Shown: piece by piece, positions 9,382-62,349 of the stretch
Layout of the letters: each line of letters begins with the position of its first letter
Position numbering within the stretch: position 1 is the first letter of the stretch
NCBI RefSeq assembly: GCF_029961155.1
Contig: NZ_JASBRH010000003.1
Span: forward strand, 62,001 to 126,000
Origin: Pontibacterium granulatum
GTDB lineage: Bacteria; Pseudomonadota; Gammaproteobacteria; Pseudomonadales; Balneatricaceae
Direction: 5' to 3'
DNA: 64,000 nt
Notes under the pieces: model-generated
Database searches by the model: none
What the model saw: the letters and a program-made list of their open reading frames with translations, nothing else
Told to the model about the DNA's origin: nothing
Program-made: the position numbers and the translations under genes

Positions 9382-9646
9382 GAAACCTTCTAATAAGTCC
9401 TATAGGCACTCTGGCGTTCGAGATGATTCATAGTCGAGGCGGAGCTTTGCGGGCATGTCAGGACATGTCAAAAAGCTCCAACGAAGAGAATGAATCATCT
9501 CGATCGCCCCGAAGGGCAAGTCCAGAAGCCCGCACCTCCTGCGTTGCAGTTCTTGGTAAGGACTACGGCCATTACCTGCAAACTTCGCCTTGTATCTGCG
9601 GGCTTCTGAACTTGCAGAGCACGCATAGGACTTGTTAGCAGGTTTC
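9382..9646. repeat. Structured intergenic repeat, copy A (three-way junction)
   Basis: 265 bp bounded by a 22-nt inverted repeat (9382-9403 with 9625-9646; 20 pairs, one G.T). Inside are two arms. Arm 1 pairs 9413-9430 with 9491-9508 (17 of 18), with nested GGAGCTTT/AAAGCTCC (9441-9448, 9472-9479) and CATGTC/GACATG at the tip. Arm 2 pairs 9518-9534 with 9597-9613 (16 of 17) and encloses a core with TTGCA...GGTAA...TTACC...TGCAA at 9544-9581. The core is strongly similar to that of copy B at 54267-54533, while the stem sequences differ. No ORF or transposase is inside. Confidence 0.85.
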
Positions 9647-27389: not shown

Positions 27390-27529
27390 TCTCCCCTTCT
27401 TTCACTGAAAGCTGTTGATCCGCGTCACCTCTATCACCGATTCTATGCCTGCTTGAGTAGCACTGGACTAGACTGTGAGAGTCCCTGATTTGGGGACCGA
27501 TCTGCCCACCACGTTTAGAGGACACGCCG

Positions 27530-28066
27530 ATGAGTGAGCTTCAGAATTTCCGCTTAATGGCCCGGTATAACCAGTGGATGAACGACACCCTTACCGAGGC
27601 TGCCGGGACACTACCGGAGACTGTTCTGCTGCAGGATCAAGGTGCATTTTTCGGATCGATCATGGGTACGCTGAACCACCTGCTAATCGGGGATATCATC
27701 TGGTTACAGCGTTTCAGCACCCACCCTTCAGGTTTCCATTCTCTACACCCTCTGGAAACCATGAAAAAACCCGCCACTCTCAACACCATGCTGTATGACG
27801 ACCTCGAAGCCTTCGCGGTTGAACGCCAGGGGTTGGATATCATTATTCAGGAGTGGTGCGAAGAACTGACCGACGCCGACCTGGAACATAACCTGCGCTA
27901 CTCCAACATGGCGGGCGTGCAATCGTGCAAACGGTTCGGTTTTCTGGTGCAGCACCTATTTAACCACCAGACCCACCACCGGGGTCAGATAACCACCCTG
28001 CTCTCCCAGCACGACGTGGATGTCGGTATCACTGACCTGCTCACACTGATCCCGGAAGCACACTGA
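27530..28066 (+). CDS. DinB-family protein
   Basis: 178 aa, four-helix DinB/YfiT fold. The expected metal-ligand histidines are present: one in GTLNHLLIGDIIWLQRF near residue 45 and two in FNHQTHHRGQITTLLSQH near 145. Members include thiol S-transferases and damage-inducible proteins; the exact reaction cannot be told from sequence. AGAGGA precedes the ATG. It ends at a terminator shared with the convergent selO gene. Confidence 0.9.
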   Translation: MSELQNFRLMARYNQWMNDTLTEAAGTLPETVLLQDQGAFFGSIMGTLNHLLIGDIIWLQRFSTHPSGFHSLHPLETMKKPATLNTMLYDDLEAFAVERQGLDIIIQEWCEELTDADLEHNLRYSNMAGVQSCKRFGFLVQHLFNHQTHHRGQITTLLSQHDVDVGITDLLTLIPEAH

Positions 28067-28090
28067 AAAACGGACAAAGACTCCACACAC

Positions 28091-28119
28091 AAAAACGCCG
28101 GTTCAAAGACCGGCGTTTT
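28091..28119. terminator. Bidirectional terminator, dinB-like / selO
   Basis: AAAACGCCGGT-TCAAAG-ACCGGCGTTTT, a perfect 11-bp stem with A and T tails, between the convergent dinB-like gene and selO. Confidence 0.95.
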
Positions 28120-28142
28120 GCGTTATATGGATCTGTTTTCTG

Positions 28143-29618
28143 TCATGATGAACAGGTCAGGCAGATAGCGCCCGCCCAATCAGGCGGCGTATCGGCAAAG
28201 CGCTGCACCTCCGGGTGATCATCGCCGGGATGACGCAACACCCCCAACAGCTGATTCACCAATACATAGTTGCCGTCATGCGCCTCGCGGATCGCCTCCT
28301 CTGCCATGTAGTTACGGAGGATGTATTTCGGGTTTACCGAGCGCATCTGTTGACGGCGAATTGGAAAACTGGCCGCTTCGGCAGCCAAGCGTTCATCATA
28401 CTGATCCAGCCACTGATCCAACACAGCGGCATCACACAGGAACGGATAGAGCAGATCGCGAGCGGCCCCCGCCCCTTCGTAATCACATAGCGTGCGGAAG
28501 AAGCGGTTAAAATCGACCTTATGCTCCGCAAAAAGGGTCAGCAACGACTCAATCAGCGCGGCATCACCCGCTTGCTCCGTCTGCAACCCCAGGCGCGCCG
28601 CGAGGCGTGCATTGCGGTACGCCACGAATTTGTGCGAGTAAGCACGCAACACAGCCTTCAGATCCTCCTCACCCACCATCGGTAAAAAGGACTCTGCCAA
28701 TGCGGTGAGATTCCACTGCACGATGTCCGGTTGCTGCTTAAAGGCGTAACGACCGGCTGTATCATTCTGGTTCGCCACAAAGTCCGGGCGATACTCGTCC
28801 AGGAAGGTGTAAGGTCCGTAGTCGAAGGTCTCACCGAGGATCGACATATTGTCGGTATTCAGAACCCCATGTACAAAGCCATACGCCTGCCACTGGGCAA
28901 CCAGTTGCGCGGTGCGCTCCGCGATCTGCTGATACATCGCCAGGTAGGGATTCTCGGCGTCTTTCACATCCGGGTAGTAACGCTCGATACAGTAATCCGC
29001 CAAACGACGCAGGTCTTCATGCTGCTTGCTGTAATAGAAGTACTCAAAGTGGCCAAAGCGGATATGACATGGAGTCACACGCAGAACGGCAGCACAGGGC
29101 TCCATGCCGTTGCGCATCACTTGCTGTGTACTGCCGATCAAGCACAACGCTCGTGTAGTGGGAATCCCTAAACCATGCATCGCTTCACTGACCAGATACT
29201 CGCGGATGCTGGAGCGCAGCACCGCACGGCCGTCACCAAAACGGGAATACCGGGTTTTACCCGCTCCCTTGAGGTGCAGGTCCCAGCGCTCGCCGTTTTG
29301 ATTCACCACTTCACCCAGCAACAAGCCACGTCCATCACCCAGGTCCGGGTTGTAGTAGCCAAACTGGTGACCGGTATACTTCATCGCGATCGGCTCGCTG
29401 CCCGGTAACAAGTTTCCGCCCCCAAAGTAGTTCGCCAGATCCGACGGATTGATCTCACAGGGGTTCAGGTCCAGCAACGCTGCCACTTCCGGGTTGAAGC
29501 TGATCAGGTGTGCATCAACCAACGGCTCAGGTGTAACACGGTGAAAGAAATGTTCTGGAAAGCGGGTATAACTGTTATCAAAGTTCAGCGTTTCCAGCGT
29601 GGCGAAAGAGTCGGACAT
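28143..29618 (-). CDS. selO: Protein adenylyltransferase SelO (YdiU family)
   Basis: Pseudokinase-fold enzyme that transfers AMP from ATP to Ser, Thr or Tyr of target proteins, linked to redox stress. 491 aa, full length. Motifs are NPDLGDGRGLLLGEV near residue 90, LKGAGKTRYSRFGDGRAVLR near 115 and FVHGVLNTDNMSILGETFDY near 247. The C terminus is CLTCSS, a Cys-x-x-Cys, where eukaryotic SelO has Cys-x-x-Sec and many bacteria keep only one Cys. The real stop is TGA directly after the final Ser, with no sign of a selenocysteine codon. Confidence 0.95.
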   Translation of the reverse strand: MSDSFATLETLNFDNSYTRFPEHFFHRVTPEPLVDAHLISFNPEVAALLDLNPCEINPSDLANYFGGGNLLPGSEPIAMKYTGHQFGYYNPDLGDGRGLLLGEVVNQNGERWDLHLKGAGKTRYSRFGDGRAVLRSSIREYLVSEAMHGLGIPTTRALCLIGSTQQVMRNGMEPCAAVLRVTPCHIRFGHFEYFYYSKQHEDLRRLADYCIERYYPDVKDAENPYLAMYQQIAERTAQLVAQWQAYGFVHGVLNTDNMSILGETFDYGPYTFLDEYRPDFVANQNDTAGRYAFKQQPDIVQWNLTALAESFLPMVGEEDLKAVLRAYSHKFVAYRNARLAARLGLQTEQAGDAALIESLLTLFAEHKVDFNRFFRTLCDYEGAGAARDLLYPFLCDAAVLDQWLDQYDERLAAEAASFPIRRQQMRSVNPKYILRNYMAEEAIREAHDGNYVLVNQLLGVLRHPGDDHPEVQRFADTPPDWAGAICLTCSS

Positions 29619-54266: not shown

Positions 54267-54533
54267 AAGAAGGTACGAACAAGTCCTGAAGGCACTCTGG
54301 CTTTCGGGAAGGTTCACAATCAAGGAAGCGTTTTGCTGTAATGTTGAAACCTTACAAAAAGCGCTGACACCGAGTGTGTATCTTCCCGAAAGCCCCTTAG
54401 GGCAAGCCCTTAAGCCTGCATCTGCGGTGTTGCAGTTTTTGCCAAGGGCTACGGCCATTACCTGCAAACTGCGCCTTGCATCTACAGGCTTAATGGCTTG
54501 CAGAGCACTATCAGGACTTATTCGTACCTTCTT
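54267..54533. repeat. Structured intergenic repeat, copy B (three-way junction)
   Basis: 267 bp closed by a 23-nt inverted repeat (54267-54289 with 54511-54533, 22 pairs). Arm 1 pairs 54299-54311 with 54382-54394 (13 of 13), with a nested AGCGTTTT.../AAAAAGCGCT stem. Arm 2 pairs 54404-54418 with 54485-54499 (14 of 15) and encloses the core shared with copy A (TTGCA...CTACGGCCATTACCTGCAA). The closing stem differs from copy A outside AAGTCCT, yet each copy remains self-complementary. It fills the divergent spacer between the TIGR01777 gene and ribE. Confidence 0.85.
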
Positions 54534-55205: not shown

Positions 55206-55520
55206 GTTACCGTTGAACAAGTTCTGAACAATGCCAGGTCGAAACCAAGGTCTCAGGCTCAGTCATCAATCTGTAACTGAGGCCTGATAATGAAAAAATT
55301 TTATTTGCAATAATGTTGATTTTTTAAGTTGCTACTTGTTGTTTATGGCGTATACTGACTTAGCTTGAAATTTAGGCAGTGTTCGTGTGCACTACTACGA
55401 AGTACCATTGGAATACCTCGTCAGGGCCTCATTAGTAACACCACCATTTCTTAGCAACCCGGCCTTTAAAAAATAAAAAAGGCTTAATTTTCAAAACGTA
55501 ACAAGAAGGTAAGACTAATT
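55206..55520 (+). promoter_or_regulatory. Promoter and long leader of the cold-shock gene
   Basis: TTGCTA (55329-55334), 16-base spacer, TATACT (55351-55356) gives a start near 55363 and a leader of about 158 bases, typical of cspA-type mRNAs whose leader folds differently in the cold. A GCCTTT/AAAGGC hairpin lies near 55471-55490, and AAGAAGGT stands near the ATG. The part before 55325 is the ribE 3' flank with no gene. Confidence 0.6.
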
Positions 55521-55721
55521 ATGGCTACTGGCATCGTAAAATGGTTTAACGACGAGAAAGGTTTCGGTTTCATTCAGCAGGAACAGGGCCCAGACGTATT
55601 CGTACACCATACTGCTATCCAGTCCGACGGCTTCCGCTCCCTGCAGGAAGGCCAGAAAGTAGAATTCACCGTTGCTCAGGGTCCTAAAGGCCCACAGGCA
55701 GAGAACGTAACCAAGCTGTAA
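55521..55721 (+). CDS. CspA-family cold-shock protein
   Basis: 66-aa single cold-shock domain: [20 protein letters not shown] holds RNP1 (KGFGFI) and [17 protein letters not shown] holds RNP2 (DVFVHH). RNA chaperone. The coding sequence uses frequent codons, suggesting strong expression. A hairpin AGGGCGAC/GTCGCTCT near 55745-55768 follows, possibly a terminator though without a T run. Confidence 0.97.
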
Positions 55722-55851
55722 TAGCTGTACGTTCACCGGTACATCAGGGCGACTTCCCGGTCGCTCTGATCTATATTCCCCTGCTCATTTATTTTTGGAC
55801 GTGTCCAAAGATAGTCTTCGTTTTATATCTATTTTCCTGAAAAGTAGATAT

Positions 55852-61800: not shown

Positions 61801-62349
61801 TTATTCGTTCATATCCACAATCAGCTCTTTGTACAGATCACTGTACTGAACCGCTTGTTTTTCACCAAACAGTGGATCGTCGGATTTTGGTAACTCAGCA
61901 ACCAGCTGCTGCCAGTCCGCTTCACTGGCTACGCCCTGCAGCAACGGGAATACAGAACCCTCTTCCAACTTCAAGTGCTCACTCTGCTCGTCCAGGAAGG
62001 CTTCAAGCTTATCGGTGAACTCGTCCATCGGAATGACCGCATCATGCAATATGCCATCAATGGTATCGGCCAGCTCATGGCAGGTGGTACGCATATTATG
62101 ATGAGCTTGTTCACAACTTTCGATCATCGCGTCAAGCTCATCGCTACGCCCTTTGAAGTGAGCATACATACTGTCTTCACGCGGGTGATGATACACATCG
62201 GCGTAGTTGGAGATGTAGTCGACGACATCCGCCATCAAACTGAAATTCGGGTGGTTTCCTGCGCGCAGCTTTTCCACCTTCAGGCGCAAAACTGCAAGCA
62301 GCTTGTTCAGATTAATGTGATCCTGGTGCAGCTCATTCAAGATGGTCAT
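61801..62349 (-). CDS. Hemerythrin-domain protein
   Basis: 182 aa, four-helix di-iron fold. Histidine ligands are visible in MTILNELHQDHINLNKLL at residues 8-11, DVYHHPREDSMYAHFKG near 54, and SCEQAHHNMRTTCHELAD near 80; a later EQSEHLKLEEGSVFPLLQG near 126 completes the site. Members sense or carry oxygen or NO, or aid iron-sulfur repair. The ATG at 62349 has a GGAGG site; an upstream extension is rejected. The spacer 62404-62592 shows nothing. Confidence 0.92.
   Translation of the reverse strand: MTILNELHQDHINLNKLLAVLRLKVEKLRAGNHPNFSLMADVVDYISNYADVYHHPREDSMYAHFKGRSDELDAMIESCEQAHHNMRTTCHELADTIDGILHDAVIPMDEFTDKLEAFLDEQSEHLKLEEGSVFPLLQGVASEADWQQLVAELPKSDDPLFGEKQAVQYSDLYKELIVDMNE

Follow-up and report, generated by a model that had tools for sequence, protein, structure and literature searches.

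The question raised by this locus is why a short intergenic element of Pontibacterium granulatum should keep three long stems whose sequence changes while their pairing does not. In the window (the whole stretch of 64,000 nucleotides that was analysed, i.e. positions 62,001 to 126,000 of contig NZ_JASBRH010000003.1), the original prediction had placed one such element at 9382-9646 and a second copy at 54267-54533 (267 bp), and a direct reading bore out the first pair of coordinates exactly; the second copy is also present, but its true limits are 54268-54532 and its length is 265 bp. The parts of the two elements are collected in Table 1.

Table 1. Location of the two elements, and of their parts, in the window.
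Feature	Position	Strand	Remark
Copy 1, complete element, predicted non-autonomous two-armed MITE	9382..9646	+	265 bp
Copy 1, left terminal inverted repeat GAAACCTTCTAATAAGTCC	9382..9400	+	12/19 bases common with copy 2
Copy 1, conserved junction CTCT	9409..9412	+	partner AGAG 9616-9619
Copy 1, arm 1, long hairpin	9413..9508	+	plus strand is the inward-reading strand
Copy 1, mini-hairpin CC-GAA-GG, dyad centre	9509..9515	+	
Copy 1, arm 2, homologous hairpin, inverted	9516..9615	-	minus strand is the inward-reading strand
Copy 1, right terminal inverted repeat GAAACCTGCTAACAAGTCC (minus-strand reading)	9628..9646	-	
Copy 2, complete element	54268..54532	+	265 bp
Copy 2, left terminal inverted repeat AGAAGGTACGAACAAGTCC	54268..54286	+	
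Copy 2, right terminal inverted repeat AGAAGGTACGAATAAGTCC (minus-strand reading)	54514..54532	-	

Instead of the single pair of copies initially described, the two elements represent a high-copy family, with at least 11 full-length, dispersed copies in the source genome and hundreds elsewhere. A DNA search of the whole source genome (G000) returned nine full-length copies sharing 72-100% identity, and a covariance model added two further copies belonging to a second subfamily (G000:C5:69849-70111 and C2:116770-117032). The same genome also harbors an internally deleted copy of 69 bp in which both terminal repeats are intact (L030). As for the surroundings of the two copies in the window (gene names were assigned by eye), copy 1 is found on the upstream side of a minus-strand gene of acyl-CoA dehydrogenase-like type, past which there is a universal-stress-like gene, and copy 2 is flanked by an epimerase-like gene (minus strand) and a riboflavin synthase-like gene (plus strand), the starts of which diverge. 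About 850 bp past copy 2, at 55375-55773 (+), there is a cspA-type thermoregulator RNA (RF01766, 87.6 bits).

The analysis of the ends disclosed a transposon nature, visible in terminal inverted repeats, YTAR duplications and resident IS5-type elements, which the original prediction had missed, describing a structure of an unrecognised family. In an alignment of 25 copies, the ends vary around one of two sequences, GGAAGGTGCGAAYAAGTCC or GGAACCTGCGAAYAAGTCC, and in most of the scored copies the two ends match each other at 15-18 of 19 bases. The closing stem is paired as predicted, but its outer part consists of these terminal repeats, so that the outer 13 or so bases, which had been judged unrelated between the two copies, actually represent a single terminal inverted repeat in diverged form. 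The direct flanks are frequently identical tetranucleotides (CTAG, CTAA, TTAG or TTAA). Indeed, an exact 4-bp target duplication, mostly YTAR, was detected in 55/137 copies (40%), compared with a mean of 9.7 and a maximum of 19 when the right flanks were shuffled among the copies 1000 times, and YTAR occurs on at least one side of 85/137 copies. If the boundary is shifted by 1-3 bases, CTAG or something close to it appears in some copies that had been scored as lacking a duplication (L137, L148, L154-L156). For one copy with a CTAG duplication no empty site was recovered; its relatives retained one flank only. Judging from these sequence features, we firmly regard the element as a MITE that has ends of the IS5 type and uses YTAR as its target.

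Which resident insertion sequences (ISs) might serve as helpers is suggested by the ends that they share with the element. The source genome contains an IS5-family IS with ends GGAACATGCGAATAAGTCC / GGAACCTGCGAATAAGTTC and flanks CTAG and CTAA. In other genomes the ends of the MITE and of the IS match at 18/18 bases (G295), or the MITE end matches the resident IS end, as in G314 (GGAACCTCTGAAAAATA) and in G078 (GGTAACTGCGAATAAGTCC); the transposases at L041 (G018) and L168 (G314) are assigned to the IS5 family by NCBIfam. The ends are not exclusively of the IS5 family, since the MITE end found in G379, CAGGCTGCTGAAAAACCCC, agrees at 15/18 bases with each end of an IS1182-family IS, the transposase at L173 being assigned to that family by NCBIfam. 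The terminal repeats are all that the element and the ISs have in common: a model of the arms found none in the interiors of 17 IS loci, and an autonomous, arm-carrying version was not found among them either. A simple internal deletion of an IS5-family element was therefore rejected as the origin of the MITE.

Three further observations concern these ISs. The sole IS5-family IS found in the source genome (L038 / L043, contig C66 of G000, approximately 27,490-28,650) has an in-frame stop in its transposase; since this is the only IS5-type transposase frame found here, the local copies may be immobile now, their helper having perhaps been lost. In the same genome, a degenerate IS-like gene with in-frame stops (L039, contig C73) lies beyond an apparent tRNA gene, recognised by eye. 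Finally, a separate stretch of about 70 bp with the same type of ends (L041, 1942-2012) is located beside the IS5-family IS of G018 and is possibly another minimal derivative.

The core enclosed by the ends is an inverted dimer, made of two homologous arms of one module, a relationship that the original prediction had not pointed out. A profile HMM of arm 1 gave 86 matches to arm 2, all of them on the minus strand (best E 1.6e-8), the best E for reversed arm 2, used as a control, being 0.21. The repeat unit, of about 130 bp, comprises the terminal repeat, CTCT and a long hairpin arm, and two such units are joined at a short centre, CC-GNA-GG; the joint consensus of the two halves reads, from the outside inwards, TIR, CTCT, long stem, CAAGGCG, inner hairpin, CAACRC, long stem and CCC. 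The length of the element is nearly fixed (262-266 bp in 122/137 copies, most covariance-model matches being 258-270 bp long), and the unpaired motifs (AAGG, CAAC, the junction and the centre) are conserved across the phylum. The apical loop of arm 2 tolerates growth, as several copies from one genome (G021; L022, L024, L026) carry there a 17-base, partly self-complementary insertion, AAAGTGCCCTTTAGGGT. No frame is open in more than 20/137 copies, and a hidden ORF was rejected, there being no open frame conserved across these 137 copies; an ordinary intrinsic terminator was likewise rejected, because arm 1 terminates in GCCCC-GNA-GGGC without a T run. To our knowledge, none of boxA/boxB, attC, dif, the K-turn and the put-site would fit the conserved positions.

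The family is found well beyond the source genome. Owing to its dyad, each copy is matched by the covariance model on both strands, so that matches per genome do not equal copies, and the candidates in each genome were counted up to a fixed maximum; in terms of genomes, the model detected the element in 47/116 of the family, in 109/391 of the order (54/143 genera), in roughly a quarter of the class (93/369 genomes, 76/274 genera) and also in other classes of the phylum. The ranks follow the taxonomy used in the genome search, the class and the phylum being read as Gammaproteobacteria and Pseudomonadota from the cspA thermoregulator and the gene content of the window. In distant relatives the core is retained, with quite different terminal repeats and a longer outer stem. 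One genus from another part of the phylum harbors abundant one-armed elements of 160 bp with YTAR duplications (at least 17 and at least 24 matches in two genomes; L311-L315, L331-L395), and thus one arm and two ends suffice for multiplication. Plasmids, phages and viral contigs gave no match by BLAST or by exact words, two approaches that are insensitive to this element family, and the 7 matches of an exact core word in genome contigs, all from other taxa, do not correspond to the element.

As regards the genes around the copies, a crude ORF rule placed 36 of 127 two-armed copies between convergent, 61 between tandem and 30 between divergent neighbours, with no clear position bias. One-armed copies located between tandem genes are skewed 12:4 against inward-sense reading (p = 0.08), a hint that would fit an arm harming downstream expression when it is transcribed inward.

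The closing stem, the two arms and their compensating changes were all recovered as described by the original prediction, through folding and through the 25-copy alignment, which was built from sequence alone. Both copies in the window fold far better than their dinucleotide shuffles (z = -8.8 for copy 1 and -9.2 for copy 2; in each case 0/100 shuffles reached the same energy and the gap exceeded 50 kcal/mol). In the alignment, 96.0% of the cells are paired and double changes affect 56/91 pairs, compared with a mean of 35.5 after shuffling, none of 500 shuffles reaching 56; the covariation score is 0.434, versus 0.162 for shuffled and at most 0.086 for slid controls. Moreover, single paired positions may show all four Watson-Crick pairs among the 137 copies (e.g. 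GC 51, CG 37, AT 36, TA 11). The stems covary very strongly, and the idea that structure rather than sequence is kept is strongly supported by the 56 doubly changed pairs. The outcomes that had been named as speaking against this idea, a lack of further copies and arms diverging without compensation, were not encountered, the copies being many and their arms compensated.

What kind of molecule is folded can be approached through the mismatches, as equal numbers of G-T and A-C would be expected if double-stranded DNA or arm-to-arm copying alone mattered. This is what the terminal repeats show (G-T:A-C 35:35). In arm 1 the ratio is 79:29. Arm 2 shows the reverse (22:43), but reading it on its own inward strand reveals the preference already seen in arm 1. 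When both arms are read on the inward strand, the ratio becomes 122:51 (p = 7e-8, an optimistic value, because distinct states per cluster, and not events on a tree, were counted), and it reaches 67:15 in the inner hairpins. The excess of G-T derives from G-C pairs (82:33) and A-T pairs (40:18) alike, and the unpaired sites exhibit no bias that could explain it (C>T 74 vs G>A 89; A>G 60 vs T>C 51). Among the clusters, 23 agree with the inward-strand bias, 4 disagree and 3 tie (23/27 informative), and the arms of the one-armed elements lean the same way (13:6, not significant). The G-T excess in the arms, its absence from the terminal repeats and the lack of mutation bias at unpaired sites together argue strongly that the arms are selected as a single-stranded fold, formed in each arm by the strand that reads into the element from that end.

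The original prediction had offered RNA, a DNA cruciform or arm-to-arm conversion as causes. Conversion alone is disfavoured by the conserved unpaired motifs and by a strand-specific G-T excess that concerns the arms and not the terminal repeats; RNA and single-stranded DNA remain, and RNA is favoured, since G-U in RNA is almost equal to a standard pair, although single-stranded DNA also tolerates G-T better than A-C. The selected fold is thus probably RNA.

Taking these data together, we consider it quite probable that the element is a MITE moved in trans by an IS5-type transposase, the arms of which are kept as a strand-specific fold, probably an RNA and perhaps one that acts on read-through transcription. 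A resident IS5-type transposase would act on the terminal repeats, and, less surely, each arm would act as a folded RNA made when transcription enters from its own side, so that the first arm transcribed would be the functional one, whichever side the transcript comes from. The likeliest use of such an arm would be the control of read-through transcription, by blocking, cleaving or taming the incoming transcript; in this way the far end of the transposon would be protected and the insertion site would suffer less harm. More tentatively, we can speculate that the core might be a selfish structured RNA module older than its carriers, which would swap IS5- and IS1182-type ends and act on transcripts entering from either side through a block, cleavage or antitermination. 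If this were true, we would be dealing with a transposon bearing an RNA-level insulator at each end.

A different reading of the same transposon, which we regard as rather unlikely but which survives better than the others, is that the arms work as single-stranded or cruciform DNA and that a host protein or the transposase recognises the hairpin with the CAAGGCG / CAACRC internal loop, e.g. in the course of replication or transposition, in the manner of REPINs and of the ends of IS200/IS605. Recognition of a hairpin on one strand would likewise yield the G-T/A-C asymmetry, the layout as an inverted dimer is REPIN-like, and the fold is retained irrespective of gene orientation. However, the arms are absent from autonomous ISs that have these ends, and are then not needed for IS5-type transposition; HUH (Y1) transposases do not generate 4-bp target duplications such as those of the element; and the 67:15 bias of the inner hairpins would seem to exceed what the modest difference in stability between G-T and A-C in DNA can account for. 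REPINs, in turn, depend on a Y1 transposase and have neither IS-type inverted-repeat ends nor 4-bp target duplications, and an assignment of the element to them, with a Y1/RAYT-type mobility that leaves no target duplication, was rejected in view of its 4-bp duplications.

It is also necessary to consider that the pairing might have no function, if template switching during replication (quasipalindrome correction) kept inverted repeats complementary by copying changes across the stem. In agreement with this, double changes abound even when the copies are closely related, with 289 compensated cells where shuffling inside clusters of copies at least 85% identical predicts 86.5. Of the double changes found in the arms when copies sharing 85-93% identity are compared, half are transversions that have no G-T intermediate. 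Nevertheless, such a process would not account for the conservation throughout the phylum of the unpaired AAGG, CAAC, junction and centre, which have not been corrected, nor for the rigid length of the arms, nor for an asymmetry that is present in the arms and absent from terminal repeats that covary as well. We judge it improbable as the whole explanation, even though template switching may add to the speed of compensation.

A host-encoded structured or cis-regulatory RNA family, kept for the benefit of the cell and duplicated by chance, would be in keeping with the deep conservation of fold and length and with the intergenic location of the copies, but it appears extremely improbable given the target duplications, the IS-matching ends, the unbiased orientation of the neighbouring genes, the existence of deleted and one-armed mobile forms, the lack of any relevant Rfam match (either in the window, searched at the gathering cut-off, or in 11 loci searched with E values of up to 1) and data that so far suggest no orthologous copies beside the same genes across genera.

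Several known systems share part of these features with the MITE described here. The closest in its ends is MITEPsy1 of Pseudomonas syringae, a non-autonomous element that transposes in vivo, is thought to derive from ISPsy2 and has an IS5-type terminal repeat (GGAAGGTCTGAAAAAGCC) and a 4-bp duplication of CTAG or YTAA, but is 100 bp long and is not known to carry a two-armed covarying core (PMC3189936). IS5-family ISs (NCBIfam NF033581) have terminal repeats up to 18/18 identical within one genome and YTAR flanks; unlike the MITE, they code for a transposase and have no arms. MITEAba12 is also short, non-autonomous, of near-fixed length and spread throughout a bacterial family, with only its ends common to ISs, but measures 111-114 bp, produces 9-bp duplications and has another terminal repeat, no covarying fold being described in the available portion of that report (PMC6382973). 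ERIC, NEMIS/Correia and YPAL are mobile intergenic repeats whose transcripts fold, the Correia/NEMIS RNA being cut by RNase III and ERIC altering mRNA stability; they are, however, stem-loops of about 100-200 bp with narrower host ranges, for which no inverted-dimer core has been described (PMC2229807, PMC10969869). In REPINs / REP-RAYT systems the mobile unit consists, as here, of two homologous hairpins in inverted order (PMC3116915, PMC2817692). The CIR repeats of Caulobacter, too, possess two long-stem arms and a linker, but they are about 110 bp long, alphaproteobacterial and devoid of terminal inverted repeats, with GANTC in a loop (PMC2229807). We found no description of the element in the published literature; an overlap with an unnamed entry among the 250 mobile or repeat motifs listed by Narunsky et al. 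2024 is possible (PMC11109978).

It is already known that there are MITEs with folded transcripts, such as ERIC, NEMIS and CIR (PMC2229807, PMC10969869). What is new, as far as the literature and Rfam show, is that the range spans the phylum, that the two-armed inverted dimer is rigid and that the element does not depend on any single IS. Bacterial MITEs are usually viewed as short-lived scraps of one insertion sequence, found in one genus. The element analysed in this work keeps its length and its fold in many genera throughout the phylum, appears to outlast its helpers and seems to be selected as a folded strand. Its annotation is warranted, as it is abundant in the class, adjoins many genes and may pass for a regulatory RNA. 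Lastly, it offers a convenient case in which to test whether a conserved RNA device can reside in a selfish DNA.
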